From: a virus | Length of the DNA: 40,993 bases | Strand: one strand, 5' to 3' | IMG/VR virus record: IMGVR_UViG_3300044858_001833 | Span: 1 to 40,993 of that record | Part shown: piece after piece, positions 5,108 through 20,534 of the stretch | Layout: every line of letters starts with the position of its first letter | Position numbering within the stretch: position 1 is the first letter of the stretch | Notes under the pieces: generated by a model | What the model was told of the DNA's origin: nothing | The model's input: the letters and a program-made list of their open reading frames with translations, nothing else | Databases searched by the model: none | Position numbers and translations under genes: made by a program

Positions 5108-5736
5108 TTCAAGAATCCATCGAAGACTTTCGCAAACGGTATAAAGGAACCTTTGTGTTCCTGAATATCGAGGGCAAAGAACAACTTGTCTACTATGAGC
5201 ATGATGAGGAAGAATCTTTCTCATTCTGGTCTCCAGTCTATGGTGACATTCTAGTAGACAAAGAATGTGCAATGAGCAGATTGTCTTTCATCTTCCCTGA
5301 AAATGGTTTGTATAACATTGGAGGGACTTGCTGGGAATTCAACAGGAACCCAGCACGTCAATGGAAACGTGCTCCATGCCATGAGAACACTGTTTTCTCC
5401 AACCCACTCCATCTCCTTGGTGTCCTTGGGAGAGAACGTCTCAGTCTCACCAGCGGTACAGCACAGGAACTATTCTTCCCTAGCTATCCAAACAGTATTG
5501 AGGAAGCAATTGAAAACCTCAAGCCAATGGTTGCTTTGAACTTAAAGTTTGGTATATCTTGTTCAGCAACCAAAGACAAGAACAAACTCATTCTGTGGTA
5601 TAAGAATGATCCTATTGGGTATGCAAACCCAGAAACAAAGACGATTGAAGTTTATGTTAAGCAACTCTATCAAGAAGTTGTTGACTTCATCAAACGTGAA
5701 GCTTGGACATGGAGCCTTGTGAATAAATGTCAATGA
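5104..5736 (+). CDS. Unknown protein inside the amidoligase cassette (210 aa)
   Basis: It starts inside the previous stop (ATGA); a start 18 bases earlier is possible but unnecessary. The protein is soluble alpha/beta with several aromatic strands (GTFVFLNIEGKEQLVYYEHD, ENGLYNIGGTCWEFN) and no motif of a known ligase, transferase or protease. Its place between the two amidoligases, with overlap on both sides, argues that it belongs to the same pathway, perhaps as a substrate-binding or accessory subunit. That is inference. Confidence 0.85.
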   Translation: MIQESIEDFRKRYKGTFVFLNIEGKEQLVYYEHDEEESFSFWSPVYGDILVDKECAMSRLSFIFPENGLYNIGGTCWEFNRNPARQWKRAPCHENTVFSNPLHLLGVLGRERLSLTSGTAQELFFPSYPNSIEEAIENLKPMVALNLKFGISCSATKDKNKLILWYKNDPIGYANPETKTIEVYVKQLYQEVVDFIKREAWTWSLVNKCQ

Positions 5737-6914
5737 CCATTGCAAAAATTTTGGACGGTCTTCCCAGACTACGTGTCTTCGATGAAGACCTCAAAACATT
5801 TGAAGACGTCAACCCTTTCGTTCCACTCTACCCTGTTGTGGATAAAACTACCTATCTGGGTATTGAGGTAGAAATAGAGAATGTCCGTACTTGGGGAGAA
5901 GGAGCAGGTACACGCTCCCCATACTGGAACACCGTTGAGGATGGTTCTCTACGAAATCATGGGGCTGAATTCATCACCCCACCAATTCGTGCTTGGCGTA
6001 CTGAACATGCCCTCAACCGCCTGTTCTCTGAGGTCAACAAAGACATTGAGTTCACTGAACGAACCTCAGTACATGTTCACATGAACATCAGGACGCTTAC
6101 AATCGAGCAGCTTGAAGCTTTCTTAATCACCTATTTGGTGTTTGAAAAGCTTCTCTTCGATTTCATCGGACAAGATCGTTCAAAGAACATCTTCTGTGTG
6201 CCACTAACAGAAACAAACAACGGACTGGTGATTCAATCCATCATCCGAAACAAAAACCTTTCATTCCCATGGTCTAAGTATACAGCTCTGAATCTTCTCC
6301 CTATCCGGGAAAAGGGAACTGTTGAATTCCGGCACATGCATGGAACGAAAGACATCAAGAAGCTCATGACTTGGATTAACATCATCCTCTGTCTGAAGGT
6401 GTTTGCTCTGAAAAACCCCCCAGAATACATCTGGGAACAAGTAAGAGCTCTAAACACTTCATCTCAGTATGAGCTATTTGCTCAAGAAGTATTCGGAGAT
6501 CTGGCTCAAACCCTATGGTCAACTGACAAACCACAAAGCAAGATTGCAGAATGTGTGTCTTACATCAAGAACAAATGCATTCAAAACACATTCAAACAAA
6601 CTATCTTTGTAGAGGGAGAATCTCCTTTAGCAAACTACATTGGGGAAAAACCTACTTCTTATGAAAGAGATTTAAATGGAACTCCCTTAAGTGCTATGCT
6701 AGAAAGAACAGTTATAAATTCTTTTGAAGATGAAGAACCCATTGTTGATAATGAAAGTATTACTTGGAATCTCACAACACAAGATGCCCTAAATAGAATT
6801 AGAGAAAGTAACATGAGAGAAATGGCAGGGACGGAGGCTCCCCAAAGGACATCGGTCCCCTCAATGGCAGAAATCCTAGCAACCCGACCAATTGTACGAC
6901 CACGGAGAATCTAA
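5727..6914 (+). CDS. Amidoligase_2 family protein
   Basis: 395 aa, glutamine-synthetase/GCS-like fold. Visible motifs are GIEVEIE at 45-51 (metal-binding Glu residues), DGSL at 72-75, GAEFITPP at 79-86, SVHVHMN at 114-120 and EFRHMHGT at 200-207, the usual order in this family. It is expected to join a carboxylate to an amine with ATP. About 100 C-terminal residues past the catalytic core are low in motifs and may be a recognition tail. GGAG lies 12 bases before the ATG; a second ATG six bases on overlaps the previous stop. Confidence 0.93.
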   Translation: MSMTIAKILDGLPRLRVFDEDLKTFEDVNPFVPLYPVVDKTTYLGIEVEIENVRTWGEGAGTRSPYWNTVEDGSLRNHGAEFITPPIRAWRTEHALNRLFSEVNKDIEFTERTSVHVHMNIRTLTIEQLEAFLITYLVFEKLLFDFIGQDRSKNIFCVPLTETNNGLVIQSIIRNKNLSFPWSKYTALNLLPIREKGTVEFRHMHGTKDIKKLMTWINIILCLKVFALKNPPEYIWEQVRALNTSSQYELFAQEVFGDLAQTLWSTDKPQSKIAECVSYIKNKCIQNTFKQTIFVEGESPLANYIGEKPTSYERDLNGTPLSAMLERTVINSFEDEEPIVDNESITWNLTTQDALNRIRESNMREMAGTEAPQRTSVPSMAEILATRPIVRPRRI

Positions 6915-9144: not shown

Positions 9145-9314
9145 AATGCCTAGCATGTGATAAAATTCTCACCGACCATGAAGCAACACGTCGCTTCAGT
9201 GAATCTAAAGCGTTTGTTGACCTATGTAACCACTGCTTTTACAGTGGAGTTTCTGACGAAGTAAATTTCTCTGAACGAGATGACTTAGCTGACGAAACCG
9301 ATGACCTATGTTAA
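9141..9314 (+). CDS. Small zinc-binding protein (57 aa)
   Basis: MKCLACDKIL has AAGGA 6 bases upstream. Two cysteine pairs, CLAC (3-6) and CNHC (29-32), are spaced like a treble-clef or zinc-ribbon domain; the tail is acidic and ends in Cys. The stop overlaps the primase start by 14 bases. Such small zinc proteins are common next to phage replication genes; the role is unknown. Confidence 0.78.
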   Translation: MKCLACDKILTDHEATRRFSESKAFVDLCNHCFYSGVSDEVNFSERDDLADETDDLC

Positions 9315-10047
9315 ACACCAACCCTGCCCAGCCTGTGGTAGCCGAGACAACCTCGCAGTCTACACCGACCACGAATACTGCTTCGGATGTGGACACATTG
9401 AGTTCTACACCTACCACCCAAGAAGAATTGGTAATGTCAAAGAGTCGAATGAAAAGATTGTCAGTTTACCGGAAGACATTGCCCCCTACATCCCAGCAGT
9501 AGCTGAGTCCTGGATTAAGAAATATGATTTGACTTTACGTGAACTTTATGATAACAATGTAGTGTGGAGTGACTATCGACAGCTCCTCATCTTTCCCTAT
9601 TTTGATGAGAAGCACTTCCTTTGGGGATGGCAAGGCAGGTATTTTGGAGACGATCCTAAGCATCCTAAGTGGACAGGTAAGGGGAATTTCAAGGAACAAA
9701 TCAAAATATACTTGACAAGAAATAAAGAAAGCAGTATAATAGTTTTAACAGAAGACATAATTAGTACAATCAAAATACAAAGACTCTATAACAGTAGTTG
9801 TTTACATGGTAGTTACATAGATATCAATAAATACAGTAAAATCTATAACATCTATAAGCCAAAGGAAGTAGTCCTTTGGCTAGATAAAGACAAACAAAAA
9901 GAATCTTATCTATTTTCTTTACAACTTAACAAGATAGGTATTCCTAGTAGAGTTGTCTCTACGAATTTAGATCCCAAGTGCTACACCACCTCTGAGATAA
10001 AGGAAATCATTGAACCCAAAGCTACTGGTATTACGTCTGTTCCTTAA
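9301..10047 (+). CDS. DNA primase (zinc ribbon plus TOPRIM)
   Basis: 248 aa, primase of the T7/DnaG type without a helicase domain. The zinc ribbon is Cys9-x2-Cys12 ... Cys27-x2-Cys30 (CPACG, CFGCG). The TOPRIM core shows a conserved Glu in VLTEDI (about 150) and the DxD pair in WLDKDK. It makes RNA primers at the fork for the polymerase encoded downstream. The second half is AT-rich and contains a perfect promoter sequence. The helicase gene overlaps its 3' end, so primase and helicase, fused in T7, are separate here. Confidence 0.9.
   Translation: MTYVKHQPCPACGSRDNLAVYTDHEYCFGCGHIEFYTYHPRRIGNVKESNEKIVSLPEDIAPYIPAVAESWIKKYDLTLRELYDNNVVWSDYRQLLIFPYFDEKHFLWGWQGRYFGDDPKHPKWTGKGNFKEQIKIYLTRNKESSIIVLTEDIISTIKIQRLYNSSCLHGSYIDINKYSKIYNIYKPKEVVLWLDKDKQKESYLFSLQLNKIGIPSRVVSTNLDPKCYTTSEIKEIIEPKATGITSVP
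9712..9740 (+). promoter_or_regulatory. Perfect-consensus sigma70 promoter inside the primase gene
   Basis: TTGACA at 9712-9717 and TATAAT at 9735-9740 are separated by exactly 17 bases. It points toward the helicase, whose start is about 260 bases beyond the expected start of transcription. It lies in AT-rich coding sequence, so it is predicted from sequence only. Confidence 0.6.
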
Positions 10048-11239
10048 CCCAGAGATCTGGAAAGAGTACAGGCAGTTTGTCAACCCCAAAGGAGATAAAT
10101 ATCTAGAAACTCTTTATGCCTCTCTAGACGGATTGTTAAGTAGAGTTGATAGGCAGATATCCCTAGATGAATTTAAAGCCAACCTAGAGGCTTCTGGAGC
10201 CCTTGCAAGGGATAAGGACAAGGATGTTTATCTCCAGATGTTGGAAGTGTTGGAAAAAGCTGACGTAAAGGAGGATGTTTTACATGACCTACTGGTGCAA
10301 ATCAAGCAAAAAGAAATTGCCGAGAAGCTGGGTATTGTTTCTTTTGAATTCGCAGAAGGAAAGAAAGATCTTTCTGCTATAAAAGAAATTTATGAGACCT
10401 TCGGTACAGTAGAAAGCAAGCTAAAGGAAATGAAGTTTGTAACTGACGACTTAGAGGAGCTCTATGAACAAGCCGTTGCCACCCCAGGTTTACGATGGAG
10501 ACTTGCTAGCCTTAATCGAATGCTTGGATCTATTAGGAAAGGTGATTTCGGATTTGTATTTGCTCGACCTGAAACCGGGAAAACGACTTTCCTTGCTTCT
10601 GAGGTGGCACATTTTGCGGAGCAATCTAGCAGTCCTATTATCTGGATAAACAACGAAGAGCAGGGCAACAAGGTAATGATGCGCCTGTACCAAGCTAGTC
10701 TTGGTGTTACAGTTCAGGAACTAATGAGGGATAGAAATGCCAGCAAAGAACAGTATTTCAGAAATACCAAAGGAAACATTAGAATTTTTGACGATGCTTC
10801 AATCTTTAAACGACAAATTGAAGATCTTTGCTCCAAATATTCCCCTGGACTGGTTGTTATTGACCAGATTGATAAAATTAAAGGATTTGATGGAGATCGA
10901 GAGGATCTTAAACTCGGAGCAATTTACCAATGGGCTAGAGAGCTTGCGAAACAGTATTGCCCAGTTATCGGAGTGTGTCAGGCTGATGGAAGTGCTGAAG
11001 GAATCAAGTGGCTTAACATGGGACACGTCACCAGCGCCAAAACAAGTAAGCAAGCGGAAGCCGACTTCATTATTGGTATTGGAAAAACTAATGAACAGGG
11101 ACGTGAAAATACACGATACATAAACATCAGCAAGAACAAACTACATGGTGATCCAGACAGTGATCCGTCACAACGTCATGGATTCTGTGAAGTGATTATA
11201 GAGCCTGAACTGGCTCGTTACAGAGAAATTGGAGGGTAG
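10010..11239 (+). CDS. DnaB-like replicative helicase
   Basis: 409 aa RecA-fold ATPase. Walker A is ARPETGKTT (185-193), Walker B is LVVIDQ (281-286), a sensor-like Gln is in GVCQAD, and a basic arm follows at SKNKLHGDPDS. The N-terminal ~150 residues are helical and should mediate hexamer or primase contacts. The chosen start is TTG with AAAGGA about 5 bases upstream, inside the primase gene; no ATG is better placed. It unwinds the fork together with the separate primase. Confidence 0.92.
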   Translation: MNPKLLVLRLFLNPEIWKEYRQFVNPKGDKYLETLYASLDGLLSRVDRQISLDEFKANLEASGALARDKDKDVYLQMLEVLEKADVKEDVLHDLLVQIKQKEIAEKLGIVSFEFAEGKKDLSAIKEIYETFGTVESKLKEMKFVTDDLEELYEQAVATPGLRWRLASLNRMLGSIRKGDFGFVFARPETGKTTFLASEVAHFAEQSSSPIIWINNEEQGNKVMMRLYQASLGVTVQELMRDRNASKEQYFRNTKGNIRIFDDASIFKRQIEDLCSKYSPGLVVIDQIDKIKGFDGDREDLKLGAIYQWARELAKQYCPVIGVCQADGSAEGIKWLNMGHVTSAKTSKQAEADFIIGIGKTNEQGRENTRYINISKNKLHGDPDSDPSQRHGFCEVIIEPELARYREIGG

Positions 11240-11595: not shown

Positions 11596-11782
11596 AACAG
11601 ATTTCTTCGGAGATCGCAATTGTAAATCAACACGGAAGTTTGAAGCAGATGAGTTGTCAGAAGTAATTCTGCAAATGGAACTCTTCTTGAAAGGATGTGG
11701 ATATTATGTGGAGAATCTAACCTATGACATACCAAGTGTTGGATGTCGAAACTACGACATTCCAGAAGGGGAACCCTTTTAG
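11570..11782 (+). CDS. Small hypothetical protein (70 aa)
   Basis: MKFLFLASETDFFGDRN has GGAGG 6 bases upstream. It contains a KFEADELSEVILQMELFL helix and several cysteines, without a clear metal site. It overlaps the polymerase start by 59 bases, so its translation probably drives that of the polymerase. No family was recognised. Confidence 0.77.
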   Translation: MKFLFLASETDFFGDRNCKSTRKFEADELSEVILQMELFLKGCGYYVENLTYDIPSVGCRNYDIPEGEPF

Positions 11783-12839
11783 TAGACGTAACAAACTAGT
11801 AGTGGTTGGTGTTGGTGAATATATGGGTATGGACAAACAAGAGATCCAATCCAGAATTGACAACACACAACTGCTTGTTGGATTTAACATTAAGTTTGAC
11901 TTACATTGGATACGCAATTATGAAATTGATTTCAGTCGCTGTGCTGTTTGGGATTGCCAACTCGCTGCCTTTCTTCTTTCTGGGCAGTCTGTCCCCTATC
12001 CATCTCTTGATGGTGTTTCTAGCTTCTACGGGCTCGGTAGCAAGCTTGATGTGGTATCTACAGAGTATTGGGACAAAGGAATTGACACCACGGAAATCCC
12101 CGAAGAAGTGTTGCTCGACTACCTCAAGCAAGACTTGCTGCTGACAGAGCGGGTCTATCATCATCAACTCAAACTCTTTGAATCAGAACCACAGCTCTAC
12201 AAGCTCTTTAAATTACAGTGTCAAGACCTACTCGTTCTCCAAGATATGGAATGGAACGGAATGGATTTCGATGTCGAAAGAGCAGAAGAACTTGCTAAGA
12301 AAGAAACTGAACGAATCCATGAAATTGAGGTAGAACTACAGGAGGGATATGAAGACATACCAATCAATTTCCAAAGCCGTGATCACCTTTCTGCTTACCT
12401 TTATGGCGGCTCTATCTCCAATGATGTACGTATGCCTATTGGAGTCTACAAAACGGGAGCGAAAACCGGACTCCCTCGTTATAAGATTGTAGAATACAAG
12501 TATGAACTACCTCAACTAATCAAACCACCTAAAGGATCGGAGCTTAAAAAAGATGGATTTTTCGCAACGGACGAGGGAACCCTTAGAAGTATTAGCTGTA
12601 ACAGGCAGGCTCGTCGCAGACTTGACCTTATTCTGGAACGATCTCAATCGAGCAAACTTGTGGGGACTTACTACAGAGGAATACCAGAGCTTATCGGAGA
12701 GATGGACTGGTCTGATGGGAAGATTCACGGAACTTTCAACCAATGTGTTGCTGCTACTGGGAGGCTTTCGAGCAGCAGACCCAACCTCCAAAACTTCGCA
12801 AACGAAGTCGACAAGCTCCTAGTGAGCAGATATAAATAA
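11724..12839 (+). CDS. Family A DNA polymerase, N-terminal part (3'-5' exonuclease and start of polymerase domain)
   Basis: 371 aa. Exonuclease motifs are DVE at 7-9, GFNIKFD at 53-59 and YLKQD at 133-137. The polymerase domain begins with the TGRLSSSRPNLQN motif near the C-terminus, then stops at SRYK, just before motif A should appear. Motif A and the rest of the palm lie in the same frame 500 bases downstream, after an HNH gene. So the polymerase is probably made as two polypeptides that assemble. Joining base 12832 to 13349 restores an uninterrupted frame (LLVSRY then FVVLVNVDAKALE). Confidence 0.94.
   Translation: MTYQVLDVETTTFQKGNPFSRRNKLVVVGVGEYMGMDKQEIQSRIDNTQLLVGFNIKFDLHWIRNYEIDFSRCAVWDCQLAAFLLSGQSVPYPSLDGVSSFYGLGSKLDVVSTEYWDKGIDTTEIPEEVLLDYLKQDLLLTERVYHHQLKLFESEPQLYKLFKLQCQDLLVLQDMEWNGMDFDVERAEELAKKETERIHEIEVELQEGYEDIPINFQSRDHLSAYLYGGSISNDVRMPIGVYKTGAKTGLPRYKIVEYKYELPQLIKPPKGSELKKDGFFATDEGTLRSISCNRQARRRLDLILERSQSSKLVGTYYRGIPELIGEMDWSDGKIHGTFNQCVAATGRLSSSRPNLQNFANEVDKLLVSRYK
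12152..12161 (+). repeat. GGTCTATCAT motif, copy 5 (in the polymerase gene)
   Basis: Exact copy, followed by CA, read as Val-Tyr-His in the exonuclease domain. This is the last copy seen. Confidence 0.6.
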
Positions 12840-12842
12840 TAC

Positions 12843-12871
12843 TTGACATTGTACTGTATTTATAGTATAAT
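12843..12871 (+). promoter_or_regulatory. Perfect-consensus sigma70 promoter for the HNH gene
   Basis: TTGACA at 12843-12848 and TATAAT at 12866-12871 have a 17-base spacer, only 30 bases before the HNH start and with AAAGGAG in between. It lies in the short inserted stretch after the polymerase stop, so the mobile gene carries its own strong promoter. Confidence 0.8.
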
Positions 12872-12901
12872 AGTACTATACACTACTAAAGGAGTACTAT
12901 T

Positions 12902-13372
12902 ATGGTAAGAGTAAGAACAGAAGAGTACAAAGAAAAACAACGTATTTACAATAAGAAATATCATCAAGAACATAAAGAAGAAAGATTAAAGACAATTAAT
13001 CAGTGGAAAGAGAACAACCCAGAAAAAACTAAACAATATGTAAACAACTATAGAGAACGACATCCCATTGATTATATTCTAAGAAGGGCAAAAATGCGGG
13101 CTAGACAACTAGATCTAGATTTTAATTTAGAAAAAGAAGACATCATTGTTCCAATGATTTGTCCCTATCTTAAAGTACCACTTAAGTTTGAAATGGGAAA
13201 GGGATACCAGGATACTAATATCTCTTTAGATCGTATTAACAATTCAAAAGGATATATTAAAGGAAATGTTGAGGTAATTTCAACATTAGCAAATAAAATG
13301 AAAGCAAATGCAGACTGGAAACAATTAGAAATATTTGCTACTGAGGTACTTCGTCGTGTTGGTGAACGTTGA
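12902..13372 (+). CDS. HNH homing endonuclease splitting the DNA polymerase
   Basis: 156 aa. The N-terminal half is basic with repeated Tyr/Asn/Lys helices (KKYHQEHKEER, QYVNNYRERHP), probably for DNA binding. The nuclease part has CPYLKVPL, SLDRINNSKGYIKGN (Asp110) and the closing LANKMK helix typical of phage HNH enzymes. AAAGGAG is 7 bases upstream. It is AT-rich with its own promoter, sits exactly before polymerase motif A, and its last 5-6 codons overlap the second polymerase gene. Such enzymes cut uninvaded alleles and spread by repair. No ribozyme core fits in the remaining ~45 bases, so this looks like a free-standing insertion and not an intron. Confidence 0.92.
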   Translation: MVRVRTEEYKEKQRIYNKKYHQEHKEERLKTINQWKENNPEKTKQYVNNYRERHPIDYILRRAKMRARQLDLDFNLEKEDIIVPMICPYLKVPLKFEMGKGYQDTNISLDRINNSKGYIKGNVEVISTLANKMKANADWKQLEIFATEVLRRVGER

Positions 13373-14087
13373 TGCAAAAGCCTTAGAGGTTCTTTGTGCT
13401 GCATATCTCAGTAATGATCCTATTCTTTGTAACGAGATAATTACTGGTGTAGATATGCACCAAAATAATCAGAATGATTTCAAACTACCAACAAGATTAA
13501 TAGCGAAGACATTAACCTTCAGAATTTTGTATGGAGGTACTGAATACTCATTCGCGCAAGACCCAGATTTTACTGAAGTCTCTACTAGTAAGAAATATTG
13601 GAAAGAGGTGATTGAAAAGTTCTATGACAAGTATAAAGGGCTTTCTTCATGGCATAGTAAACTTATACAAACAGCTTCCAGTACTAATAAAATAGTAATG
13701 CCTACCGGCAGATTCTATACCTATGAAAGCTATCTTAGGAATGGAGATATCGTTTGGCCTAGAACAACTATTTTAAATTACCCTGTCCAAGGTCTTGGTG
13801 CCGACCTCATGTCAATCATCCGAGTGTCTTTCCACAAACGATTCAAAGCAGCTAGATTTGTGGGACAAGAGATAAGCACCATCCACGATAGCATCGTTGT
13901 AGATGTACCAAAAGAAGAAGTAGAAGCAGTTTGTCGTATGTTTGAGAGTGTGTTTAACGATCTCCCTATGAACTTTGAGCGTGTCTTTGGAGTGCCATTC
14001 AATCTCCCTAGCCGTTGTGAAGTTTCTTACGGAAATGATAAATATTCCTTGCAAACATGGGATGGAAATGGTATAATAATAGTATAG
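13356..14087 (+). CDS. Family A DNA polymerase, C-terminal part (palm and fingers)
   Basis: 243 aa from the GTG start, which follows GAGGT at 8 bases; the frame is also open upstream to a TTG at 13335. Motif A is LVNVDAKALE (Asp6), motif B is RLIAKTLTFRILYGG and motif C is STIHDSIVVD (His177-Asp178). All polymerase catalytic residues are here, while the proofreading exonuclease is on the upstream polypeptide. The start codon and binding site lie inside the end of the HNH gene, so ribosomes finishing the endonuclease can start the polymerase half. Confidence 0.92.
   Translation: MLVNVDAKALEVLCAAYLSNDPILCNEIITGVDMHQNNQNDFKLPTRLIAKTLTFRILYGGTEYSFAQDPDFTEVSTSKKYWKEVIEKFYDKYKGLSSWHSKLIQTASSTNKIVMPTGRFYTYESYLRNGDIVWPRTTILNYPVQGLGADLMSIIRVSFHKRFKAARFVGQEISTIHDSIVVDVPKEEVEAVCRMFESVFNDLPMNFERVFGVPFNLPSRCEVSYGNDKYSLQTWDGNGIIIV
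14050..14078 (+). promoter_or_regulatory. Likely sigma70 promoter for the ssDNA-binding gene
   Basis: TTGCAA at 14050-14055 and TATAAT at 14073-14078 with a 17-base spacer, at the very end of the polymerase gene. Transcription would begin at about 14085 and give a leader of roughly 120 bases. Confidence 0.5.
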
Positions 14088-14705: not shown

Positions 14706-15503
14706 ATGAAGGCTCTTCTGGACGGCGATATTTGTGCCTACAGAACTGCTGCCGCAAGCGAGGAGACGGAGCTTGAATACTGTCTCCTCCGCTTGGATCG
14801 GATGGTTCGTGAAATCTTACATGTAACACAAGCAGACACCTATGAAATCTTCTTGTCTGGTGAAGGTAATTTCAGGTATGACATCTTCCCTGAATATAAA
14901 GCCAACCGTAAAGATACAGTACGTCCTAAGTGGCTCCAACCCTGTAGGGAATATCTAGTAACTGAATGGAAGGCTAAGCTGGCTCATGGCTGTGAAGCAG
15001 ATGATCTTATGGCTATCGAGCAGAGAGGCACCAAAGAAACTGTAATCTGTACCATTGACAAAGACTTGCTCCAAGTGCCGGGACTTCATTACAACTTCGT
15101 AAAGAACGAGTGGTATGAAATCTATCCATTCGGGGGACTAAAGAAGTTCTATACCCAGCTTATTATGGGGGATAGGTCTGATGGTATTCCGGGAATTGCT
15201 GGTCTAGGACCAGTGAAAGCAGGCAAGATGCTAGAGGGTTGCGAGACAGAACAAGAGATGTTCGATGTGTGCCGAGAGGCTTACGACAACGACGCTCTCA
15301 TGATTATGTACGGACAATGCCTCTGGATACAACGTGAAGAAGGGAAAATATGGGATCCTACATCCCTGTTGACTGGACAATCCCAGTCGAGCTCCGAGGC
15401 GGAGGAGCCGTCAGGCTCTACGACGCCGAGGGAGGAGGAGATTATCCAGTCATTGGATCTTATTACACCGGACAAAGATGGATACCTTGCGCATGGAGTT
15501 TAG
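14706..15503 (+). CDS. 5'-3' exonuclease (FEN/PIN family)
   Basis: 265 aa. Metal-binding acids are in LLDGDICAY (6-14), FPEYKANRKD, HGCEADDLM and CTIDKDLLQ, and the helix-3-turn-helix DNA-binding motif is GDRSDGIPGIAGLGPVKA. In T5- and T7-like phages this enzyme removes RNA primers and processes DNA ends. The last ~50 residues (Ser/Glu/Pro-rich) overlap another gene that looks better conserved in the other frame, so the true functional end may be near residue 215. Confidence 0.92.
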   Translation: MKALLDGDICAYRTAAASEETELEYCLLRLDRMVREILHVTQADTYEIFLSGEGNFRYDIFPEYKANRKDTVRPKWLQPCREYLVTEWKAKLAHGCEADDLMAIEQRGTKETVICTIDKDLLQVPGLHYNFVKNEWYEIYPFGGLKKFYTQLIMGDRSDGIPGIAGLGPVKAGKMLEGCETEQEMFDVCREAYDNDALMIMYGQCLWIQREEGKIWDPTSLLTGQSQSSSEAEEPSGSTTPREEEIIQSLDLITPDKDGYLAHGV

Positions 15504-15580
15504 AGGGAAGTTTTCGGCCAGACAAGAAACGGTGTGGATTGGACGTAGTTAATGGCGATACCACGAAAGAAAGCGCCTGA
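15350..15580 (+). CDS. Small conserved-looking phage protein (76 aa) overlapping the exonuclease
   Basis: MGSYIPVDWTIPVELRGGGA resembles small phage proteins that begin with a 'DWxxPVE' strand and end in a charged tail. AAGGG lies before the ATG. It overlaps the exonuclease by 154 bases and the HNH gene by 29. The exonuclease frame in the shared part is low in complexity while this one reads like a folded beta protein, which favours it as the older gene. Function unknown. Confidence 0.65.
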   Translation: MGSYIPVDWTIPVELRGGGAVRLYDAEGGGDYPVIGSYYTGQRWIPCAWSLEGSFRPDKKRCGLDVVNGDTTKESA

Positions 15581-16106
15581 TGCAGACAAACCATACAACG
15601 GAGGGACGTGGACGACAGCTCGCTTCAATGGCTTTGTCAAATCTACTCTGCGATCTGGTTCTCAAAGGTGGCCTCCCAAGTACAAAGCTCTTGGACAAGC
15701 TAAACAGGGTAAAAGGATTAATCCGGCAACAGGAAGACTTGCAGAGCACTACAGATGTGCAGCTTGCAAAGGTGATTTCCCAGCTAAGAATATCCAAGTT
15801 GACCATATTTCTCCAGTCATTGACCCTAATACTGGTTTTACTACTTGGGATGACGTAATCAAACGTATGTTTTGTGAAGAGGATAATTTCCAAATCCTGT
15901 GTCGTGAGTGTCACAAAGAGAAAACGAACTCAGAAAAACAACAATCTCTAGAAAGAACAAATGCAGATAAACTCAGTAGTGGAAACCCCAGAGGGAGCAG
16001 TGGAAGTAAGCGCCAATCTAAGCCCAGAGCAAGTGCAATTCCTTCTGGAAGTAGGGCTAAACGTAGTGTTAGCAAAGGGAGCAAAGCCATTCGTACAAAA
16101 GACTGA
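15552..16106 (+). CDS. HNH endonuclease of phage type
   Basis: 184 aa. The zinc-bound HNH core is Cys69-x2-Cys72 (CAACKGDF), Asp84-His85 in VDHISPV, and Cys117-x2-Cys120-His121 (CRECHKEKT). The N-terminal helix-rich part (ARFNGFVKSTLRSGSQRWPP) matches phage HNH proteins of the replication region. This family nicks or cuts DNA and may act in recombination, replication or homing; which applies here is unknown. The last 48 residues are Ser/Arg/Lys-rich and run over another gene in a second frame, so the enzyme may function without them. Confidence 0.88.
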   Translation: MAIPRKKAPDADKPYNGGTWTTARFNGFVKSTLRSGSQRWPPKYKALGQAKQGKRINPATGRLAEHYRCAACKGDFPAKNIQVDHISPVIDPNTGFTTWDDVIKRMFCEEDNFQILCRECHKEKTNSEKQQSLERTNADKLSSGNPRGSSGSKRQSKPRASAIPSGSRAKRSVSKGSKAIRTKD

Positions 16107-18530: not shown

Positions 18531-18903
18531 AAAAAAGAATCCAAAACTCTATAGGAAAGCTGCTCTAAAATATTATCACAATAATAAAGAAAAATGTTCT
18601 GAACGTGCTAAAAAATATAGAGAAGAAAATAAAGAACACATTAGAGACAAACAAAGGGAAGCCAAAAGAAAGAGAAAACTAGAAGCAATACAGTATCTCG
18701 GAGGTAAATGTATATCCTGTAAAGAAGAATTTCATCCAGCAGTGTATGAATTCCACCATAGAGATCCTAAAACAAAAGATAGAGACCCATCCAAGATGTT
18801 ATCTCTTTCATGGGAAAGAGTAGTAAAAGAACTAGATAACTGTGATCTTCTATGCGCTAATTGCCATAGACTAGAGCACCACAGAGAAAGTTACCAATGT
18901 TAA
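18490..18903 (+). CDS. HNH homing endonuclease in front of the reductase gene
   Basis: 137 aa from a TTG start placed 5 bases after AAGGAGG. The N-terminal half has basic Tyr/Asn/Lys helices (KYYHNNKEKCSERAKKYREE) like those of the polymerase-splitting HNH enzyme. The nuclease core shows Cys74-x2-Cys77, His89-His90 (YEFHHRDP) and Cys122-x2-Cys125-His126 (CANCHRLEHH). It is AT-rich against the background. Its stop overlaps the reductase ATG, so the insertion seems to have landed exactly between that gene and its binding site. Homing next to reductase genes is known in other phages. Confidence 0.88.
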   Translation: MSETIKDTPQERYRKKNPKLYRKAALKYYHNNKEKCSERAKKYREENKEHIRDKQREAKRKRKLEAIQYLGGKCISCKEEFHPAVYEFHHRDPKTKDRDPSKMLSLSWERVVKELDNCDLLCANCHRLEHHRESYQC

Positions 18904-20534
18904 AACAATGTTTTAAAACTTCATTTGCACATAACATCTTTAGAAACAAATATGCCCAAGGACCAGAAGACACTTGGCCTGCTCTATGCGAACGACTAGT
19001 TGAAGATGTGTGTGGTACTAGGTGGGGTACTGATCGTGCTCTTATGTCAGCGGAAGACCGTAAACAACTTGTGCAGTATATGATTGATTTTAAGATGGTA
19101 GCCGGAGGGCGTTATCTATACTATGCAGGAAGACCTAACAAAGCCTACAATAACTGCTACCTTCTACGTGCGGAAGAAGATACAAGAGAAGAGTGGGCAG
19201 CAGTAACTTGGAGGGCAATGAGTTGTCTAATGACAGGAGGTGGGATTGGCATTGATTATTCACGACTTCGACCCTATGGAAAACCGCTATCTCGGACTGG
19301 AGGGATTAGCTCCGGCCCATTGCCTCTTATGTCTGCTGTTAATGAAGTTGGTAGGAGTGTCATGCAAGGAGGATCTAGACGCAGTGCTATCTATGCCTCC
19401 CTCAACTGGCAACATGAAGATATCCCCTCCTTCCTCACAATCAAGAATTGGACAGAGGATGTACGAAGACTGAAGGAAAAGGATTTCAACTTTCCAGCTC
19501 CGCTGGACATGACCAACATCAGCTTGAATTACGATGATGCTTGGGGATGTGAAGCAGGTAATCCAATCTTCCTTGAGAACTGTCGTCAAGCTATGATGAC
19601 AGGAGAACCAGGTTTTAGTTTCAACTTCGGAGATAAAGAAAATGAAACTCTTCGTAACGCTTGTACCGAAGTTACGTCTGAAGATGATTCTGACGTTTGT
19701 AATCTTGGCTCAATCAATATGGGTAATATTAAGTCTCTGGAAGAGTTCAACGAAGTTGTTGCGCTTGGCTCCAAATTCCTGGTCTGTGGGACATTACGTG
19801 CCGACCTTCCCTATGAAAAGGTCTATAAGATTCGGGAGAAAAACCGTCGTCTTGGACTGGGCCTTATGGGTATGCACGAGTGGCTCCTTCAACGAGGACA
19901 GGGATATGAAGTAACTCCAGAATTACACAAATGGCTAGAGGTATACAAGAATGAATCTGAAAGAGCAGCTAACGAACATTGTGAACGACTATACATTAGC
20001 AAGCCAGTTGCTTACAGAGCCATTGCACCAACTGGCAGTATTGGGATCCTTGCAGGCACGACTACTGGAATTGAACCTCTATTTGCAGTCGCTTATAAAC
20101 GAAGGTATCTCACTGATGGAACTAAGTGGAAATACGAATATGTCGTCGACTCCACAGCAGACCTCCTCATCCGTGAGTATGGGCTCAACCCAGACAACAT
20201 CGACACAGCCTACAAACTAAGCCATGACTACGAAAGACGAATCAAGTTCCAAGCAGACGTACAAGATTACGTTGATATGTCAATCTCCTCAACTATTAAC
20301 CTTCCACCCTGGGGAACGAAAGATAATTGTGAAGCCAAGGTACACGAGTTTGCAAGGACTCTTGCCACATATTCTCCAAGGCTTAGGGGATTTACCTGTT
20401 ATCCGGATGGAAGCCGAGGAGGTCAGCCCCTCACAGAAATAAGCTACGAAGAAGCAATGAAGCACAAAGGCACTGTGTTCGAGGAGAACGATGTATGTAT
20501 GATTACAGGAAAGGGTGGCTCATGCGGGGTGTAA
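18897..20534 (+). CDS. nrdJ: Class II (adenosylcobalamin-dependent) ribonucleotide reductase
   Basis: 545 aa, making deoxyribonucleotides without oxygen dependence but requiring vitamin B12. Recognised segments are YNNCYLLRAEEDTREEW (first redox Cys), SCLMTGGGIGIDYSRLRP, DVCNLGSINMGN (second redox Cys), APTGSIGILAGTTTGIEP (phosphate loop) and a C-terminal GGSCGV. It is shorter than many bacterial NrdJ proteins but of usual phage size. The first residues (LKQCFKTSFAHNIF) look complete. The start has no good binding site and overlaps the HNH stop, so it probably depends on translation of that gene. No small subunit is needed or seen. Confidence 0.94.
   Translation: MLKQCFKTSFAHNIFRNKYAQGPEDTWPALCERLVEDVCGTRWGTDRALMSAEDRKQLVQYMIDFKMVAGGRYLYYAGRPNKAYNNCYLLRAEEDTREEWAAVTWRAMSCLMTGGGIGIDYSRLRPYGKPLSRTGGISSGPLPLMSAVNEVGRSVMQGGSRRSAIYASLNWQHEDIPSFLTIKNWTEDVRRLKEKDFNFPAPLDMTNISLNYDDAWGCEAGNPIFLENCRQAMMTGEPGFSFNFGDKENETLRNACTEVTSEDDSDVCNLGSINMGNIKSLEEFNEVVALGSKFLVCGTLRADLPYEKVYKIREKNRRLGLGLMGMHEWLLQRGQGYEVTPELHKWLEVYKNESERAANEHCERLYISKPVAYRAIAPTGSIGILAGTTTGIEPLFAVAYKRRYLTDGTKWKYEYVVDSTADLLIREYGLNPDNIDTAYKLSHDYERRIKFQADVQDYVDMSISSTINLPPWGTKDNCEAKVHEFARTLATYSPRLRGFTCYPDGSRGGQPLTEISYEEAMKHKGTVFEENDVCMITGKGGSCGV

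Follow-up and report, generated by a model that had tools for sequence, protein, structure and literature searches.

How does a phage come to encode its family A DNA polymerase as two polypeptides, parted just before a catalytic aspartate and with the gene of an HNH endonuclease between them, and which came first, the division or the endonuclease? These questions are raised by a locus in the window, by which we mean the whole 40,993-nt stretch analysed here, IMG/VR record IMGVR_UViG_3300044858_001833. Its relevant features are the following.

9301..11239, + strand: primase-like and DnaB-like helicase genes, ordered as in MEP401 and MEP402
11724..12839, + strand: polymerase N-half, 371 aa (3'-5' exonuclease, thumb, first part of the palm)
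12843..12871, + strand: predicted promoter of the HNH gene, TTGACA-17-TATAAT, a perfect sigma-70-like match (12/12)
12890..12894, + strand: ribosome-binding site AGGAG of the HNH gene, read from the sequence
12902..13372, + strand: HNH/endonuclease VII-like gene, free-standing, 156 aa, in the slot between the halves
13343..13346, + strand: probable ribosome-binding site GAGG of the C-half, read from the sequence, inside the HNH gene
13356..14087, + strand: polymerase C-half, 243 aa from GTG (remaining palm and fingers, with motifs A, B and C)
13371..13388, + strand: motif A codons DAKALE with the catalytic Asp, intact in the window and broken in 12 relatives
13494..13538, + strand: motif B (RLIAKTLTFRILYGG), from alignment
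13884..13889, + strand: motif C His-Asp, from alignment
14706..15503, + strand: 5'-3' exonuclease gene, downstream, again in the MEP401/MEP402 order

A sequence-only reading of this DNA had described a polymerase made as two polypeptides in one frame with an HNH gene between them, and this description stands: the offset from 12840 to 13356 is 516 bases, a multiple of three, so both halves lie in one frame. The same reading placed the N-half stop four residues after SRYK, which needs correction, as the stop codon directly follows SRYK in the open reading frame (ending LLVSRYK). The C-half frame is open in the ORF list from a TTG at 13335 to 14087, and the GTG at 13356 is the likely start codon because it aligns with the ATG of relatives. 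The overlap previously noted between the HNH gene and the second half is also present, with the HNH stop codon (13370-13372) lying over the C-half start.

Together the two products make up a family A polymerase. The PF00476 (DNA_pol_A) profile of 381 positions is matched by the N-half at positions 53-132 and by the C-half at 154-360, and this match and the alignment place what we take to be motifs A, B and C, with the catalytic Asp residues, all in the C-half. In the N-half, D7, E9, N55, K57-D59 and D137, which presumably correspond to the Exo motifs, are invariant in nine aligned rows. AlphaFold models built on alignments of 27 rows (N-half) and 29 rows (C-half) reach mean pLDDT values of 90.7 and 94.2 and resemble complementary ranges of Bst Pol I, residues 313-645 for the N-half (Z 19.0, rmsd 3.5, 314 aligned) and 648-876 for the C-half (Z 23.5, rmsd 2.0, 218 aligned); thus, both chains add up to an almost gap-free Klenow-like enzyme. 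The break falls between Taq 585 and 606 by sequence and, in the predicted models, just before the strand carrying the motif A aspartate. The models suggest that the halves reassemble into one enzyme: each chain would fold separately, one giving the exonuclease, thumb and first palm strands and the other the catalytic palm and fingers, and the two would join without a covalent bond and rebuild the palm.

Relatives of this locus, taken from the closest phage records and from IMG/VR scans, speak to the age of the division; scans of bacterial genomes found no relative. A first set of 161 loci including the window contained 158 with both halves, which come down to 135 distinct loci. In 134 of these the N-half ends after SRY or its counterpart, and the C-half begins roughly five codons ahead of the motif A aspartate. 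When the set was enlarged, both halves could be read in 154 relatives, of which 153 are divided at the same codons, with a gap of -17 to 3598 bases, and this common split point excludes a chance arrangement. The window, split after SRY and with its C-half starting just before motif A, follows this MEP401-type pattern, and all of the closest phage records share its split point. The slot itself holds nothing, other genes or an HNH gene, depending on the relative. The isolated Alcaligenes phage QDWS535 has no insert and halves that overlap by one base, and L006 is also split without an insert; MEP401 and MEP402 have a 77-78-aa ORF between the halves; and of two Manatee Spring phages, one has a 69-aa ORF and the other 3.6 kb of other genes. 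In L002 (3903-7500), the halves lie 3.6 kb apart with seven annotated genes between them, including a cytosine methyltransferase, and HNH-like ORFs of another type were seen by eye in the slots of L043 (6535-7008) and L036 (702-1202), whose C-half frames are intact.

Most split relatives have no HNH gene, so a window-type HNH is not the maker of the present split. The earlier claim that the HNH gene had split the polymerase is not supported: insert-free relatives, some with overlapping genes, share the split codons. Nor is there support for the supposition that the GTG was newly gained inside the HNH gene, since the C-half of insert-free relatives starts at the same place or within 1-2 codons of it. 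The arrangement was also thought unusual, but according to the accessible part of a report published in 2023, most MEP401-type (group I) genomes have split DNA polymerases, for which its authors suspected an intron (PMC10580990). In a 115-row tree, HNH-bearing rows are dispersed among HNH-free split rows, with 10 changes of HNH state; the analysis turned up no close relative of the window whose slot is empty, and the highest identity within the tree is 52% (L094). The single unsplit relative, L011, is placed by the tree inside the split group (100% SH-aLRT), which suggests that its halves were re-fused; L011 sits on a long branch, however, which leaves the dating of the split to one quick tree.

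The endonuclease gene of the window matches PHROG 3322 endonuclease (E 6.4e-30) and PHROG 1035 endonuclease VII (E 1e-15), in keeping with the homing-type gene recognized before, and its product can be aligned with HNHs of sister phages; a Pfam search gave no match, and the HNH profile found nothing significant in the PDB. With this family match and its position outside any intron or intein, the gene is free-standing. Its predicted promoter has counterparts in sister cassettes, with 10-12 of 12 matches at a spacing of 17 in L041, L075, L086, L087, L244 and L276 and only 9 of 12 in L078, L218 and L275; promoter consensus matches in the region are no commoner than in shuffles.

The best explanation, to which we assign a probability of about 0.82, is that the ancestor of this phage group already had separate genes for the two halves of its family A polymerase, that the two chains rejoin, that the slot between the genes has been reused, and that the HNH of the window is a later, free-standing homing endonuclease. 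The spacer would be a slot that is filled according to lineage with nothing, small genes or homing endonucleases, and the HNH gene of the window, with its own promoter, would have settled there later. From the analogy with sister phages we infer that its product probably cleaves or nicks empty alleles close to their motif A codons and that repair then spreads the gene. The split, its age and ubiquity, the predicted two-part full fold, and the occupied and empty alleles in relatives are established in this analysis.

Alternatively, a homing endonuclease may have made the original split in the ancestor and later been lost or replaced in most lineages, in which case the HNH of the window could descend from it. 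The split point adjoins codons that repeatedly receive HNH cassettes belonging to the same family as the window's, the icepoviruses, which are split separately about 20 residues upstream, have an HNH there too in ICP2 and JPW, and mobE/nrdA and mobA/topoisomerase provide precedents. We nevertheless consider this origin unlikely, given that most split relatives are HNH-free and that HNH states are scattered as late gains; moreover, short overlaps such as TAATG could come from a simple nonsense mutation and restart.

An origin in a self-splicing intron, which would carry the HNH gene and leave an mRNA joined into one polymerase, was proposed by the authors for MEP401 and MEP402, and it would suit both the single frame on the two sides and the HNH ORFs at motif B of L011 and L218, whose ends look group-I-like by eye. 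We reject it here as highly improbable, in agreement with the sequence-only reading, which saw no sign of an intron: in the window, Rfam gives no family at or above its gathering score, and relaxing the threshold brings out no group I intron. This silence is weak evidence because Rfam also missed the probable intron of L011, but outside the HNH ORF there are only 62 bases upstream and none downstream, and relatives are split without an insert or with overlapping genes instead of having an uninterrupted exon. Two pieces, a GTG start and an overlap with the HNH gene might also be the marks of a dead relic, yet the motif A, B and C and exonuclease residues are kept, the predicted fold is full, and dN/dS after motif A is at most 0.14 where defined in relatives, so we regard this as very improbable. 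There is a negligible chance that the stop separating the halves arose from an error in sequencing or assembly, as might be suspected of an uncultured virus record; the common split point in 153 of 154 relatives, including the cultured MEP401, MEP402 and QDWS535, refutes this for the group.

Reuse of the slot, as the two-gene ancestry leads us to envisage it, can be followed in sister phages. Of 180 distinct C-half loci, 12 have a member of the HNH family upstream of the C-half according to a profile made from the HNH of the window and five sisters; one of the 12 (L245) is a remnant, and a further remnant was recognized by eye in L282. The HNH gene overlaps the C-half start in the window, L218 and L275, where the frame at motif A is intact. 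In eight loci (L041, L075, L078, L086, L087, L124, L244 and L276), reading by eye shows that the HNH is preceded by a stub of the C-half start and followed by another copy of that start in different codons. Among 87 HNH loci tested, the repeat score exceeds that of their own shuffles in loci of the L086, L124 and L075 type and, by a small margin, in a few loci unrelated to them (L191, L194 and others); it is not above shuffles in L078, L041 and L276, and the stubs of these three therefore rest on reading by eye. L062 is a near-identical phage to L086 with an empty slot and flanks that are mostly 85-100% identical. L086 and L242 share 97-99% identity in the 200 bases that lead up to the break, compared with roughly 67-83% in the 5' part of the HNH gene and 86-95% in the right flank, a pattern that exchange around the break site would leave. 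These comparisons point to the HNH family as a mobile cassette that lands at the C-half start, beside the motif A codons. Occupied and empty alleles are seen for the L086/L062 and ICP2/Saratov-15 pairs, that is, in sisters and not for the window's own HNH. L011 (6333-7006) and L218 (approximately 5340-6002) have a second insertion, another HNH ORF, at motif B (after FR), and its ends look like those of a group I intron by eye.

In 12 of the 177 loci with the C-half start present (180 minus L055, L082 and L314, which are cut by a contig end), the C-half frame is broken within the DAKxL^E codons. Seven different changes make up these breaks, namely +6 with a TAA (L075), +6 with a TAG (L078), +4 (L086, L087 and L124), -1 (L041, L244 and L245), +2 (L276 and L282), +2 (L302) and +1 (L001). 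Breaks occur in 10 of 13 loci with an HNH gene or remnant compared with 2 of 164 others (Fisher p 2.8e-12, with rows that are not independent); on the tree, nine independent pairs differ in HNH on starred branches, and the break is concordant in 7.0 of them on average (median p 0.016). Only three other frame disruptions are present in the 180 loci, two in the C-half (L131 and L090) and one in the N-half (L113), and the further stops of L246 and L276 lie at the natural C-terminus.

At each break, realignment on a like codon would restore the expected residues exactly (AAA to AAA in L001), and the like-codon sites are CTG-TAA-CTG, CTT-TAG-CTA, CTT-T-CTT, CTT to TTA, CTC to CTT, and A-AAG. Past the break, those break-bearing pairs whose dS can be measured have dN/dS values of 0.03-0.14, and the value for L276 vs L282 is 0.04. 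A search for a second polymerase that could act as backup covered 9 of the 13 known break-bearing contigs and found one C-half match only in each; these contigs may be incomplete. Furthermore, the +4 form recurs in four contigs from four metagenomes and the -1 form in three contigs from three metagenomes. Exact restoration, low dN/dS, a single C-half and recurrence argue that the gene is used by way of recoding. Against efficient programmed recoding counts the lack of a stimulating RNA structure downstream (z -1.1 to +1.6 in 10 break loci, compared with -1.6 to +2.1 in four intact controls), and because the cassettes move, purifying selection may have acted in large part before the breaks arose. 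Each +6 site was found, among other IMG/VR contigs, only in its own contig, so a single-contig error is possible for both; L276 and L282 come from one metagenome, and the L001 break could be a homopolymer error.

We tentatively suggest, at somewhat less than even odds, that HNH cassettes repeatedly invade the C-half start and leave breaks in motif A (DAKxL^E) that destroy their DNA target, that slips and hops leave the protein unchanged, and that the window is a settled form. The HNH-linked breaks would spare the protein through slips or hops of the ribosome from one codon to a like one, and two of them would be natural stop-hops. In the settled form the interruption would never have been made, or would since have been resolved; the C-half of the window, open from 13335 to 14087, has no frame interruption of the gene 60 bypass type. 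CUU-UAG-CUA is an early laboratory hop site. Stop-hops have been described in synthetic constructs, and the accessible part of a 2016 recoding review knows of no natural in-frame stop hopping (PMC5009743). In the literature covered, largely outside subscription journals, we came across no description of frame breaks of this kind in family A polymerases.

The icepoviruses offer a parallel. In ICP2 and its kin (Zobellviridae), the N-half ends with NLQNISN and a stop and the C-half begins with MSDIKRCI, about 20 residues upstream of the MEP401-type split point, and this split (L318, which is ICP2, and L322-L325, including VP41s3) is independent of the MEP401-type one. As in the window's group, the family A polymerase of icepoviruses is divided and some members have an HNH in the slot: it is present in ICP2 and JPW, whereas Saratov-15 and ICP2_2013 lack an insert and VP41s3 has a small ORF. 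Unlike in the window, the HNH is of another type, and in the GenBank annotation of ICP2 a single CDS is joined from the two halves across the HNH gene. Compared with Saratov-15, the flanks of ICP2 and JPW are mostly 92-100% identical and drop to 70-80% in the 50 bases beside the slot, as expected of a cassette with foreign flanks homing into an already split gene.

Our findings can be set beside other divided phage enzymes. In Aeh1 nrdA/mobE, as in the window, an HNH gene separates the coding regions for two parts of an essential enzyme; there, however, the split is attributed to the HNH insertion, whereas the split of the window is older than its HNH. T4 mobA/gene 60, like the sister phages, combines a homing endonuclease beside a split enzyme gene with a nearby frame interruption; T4 gene 60 uses a 50-nt translational bypass, whereas the breaks in the sisters amount to -1 to +6 bases, with presumed recoding, and the window has no interruption. 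The seg43 endonuclease of Aeromonas phage 25 is presumably of the GIY-YIG type, from the seg family. According to the accessible part of PMC2988022, gene 43 of phage 25 (with seg43 between) and of 44RR encodes a two-gene replicative polymerase like that of the window, the endonuclease of phage 25 may likewise have entered an already split gene, and the two parts of gp43 from phage 25 purify together and are active as a polymerase; this is a family B polymerase (PolB), whereas that of the window is family A. Thus, a split polymerase with a homing endonuclease between its parts is already known from gp43, as far as that source describes it, and the window is its family A counterpart with an HNH; what is new is the age and ubiquity of the split, the icepovirus parallel, and the motif A breaks in sisters. 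MEP401/MEP402-type phages (Zobellviridae), in the accessible part of their description (PMC10580990), resemble the window in their halves, split point and replication-module gene order but have the 77-78-aa ORF and no HNH gene between the halves. Homing endonuclease genes near essential genes are common, as the part of PMC10448857 available to us notes.

The stable split shows that members of a large phage group can keep a replicative family A polymerase cut in two close to the catalytic centre, and that homing endonucleases reuse the resulting gene slot. If the breaks in sister phages are translated, they would represent a natural, repeated use of short ribosomal hops, and a selfish gene could target codons whose change would kill the enzyme. 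Both points could be tested at the bench with short pieces of DNA.

Other genes of the window also touch on this subject. A separate RNase H-fold gene at 16149-16883 matches PHROG 403, DNA polymerase exonuclease subunit (E 1.9e-89), and so adds another proofreading-type exonuclease to the neighbourhood of the split polymerase. Next to the 5'-3' exonuclease gene, positions 15552-16106 encode a further HNH-type endonuclease (PHROG 3106, E 5e-27), and in the ribonucleotide reductase gene at 18897-20534 the PF02867 match falls into three stretches.
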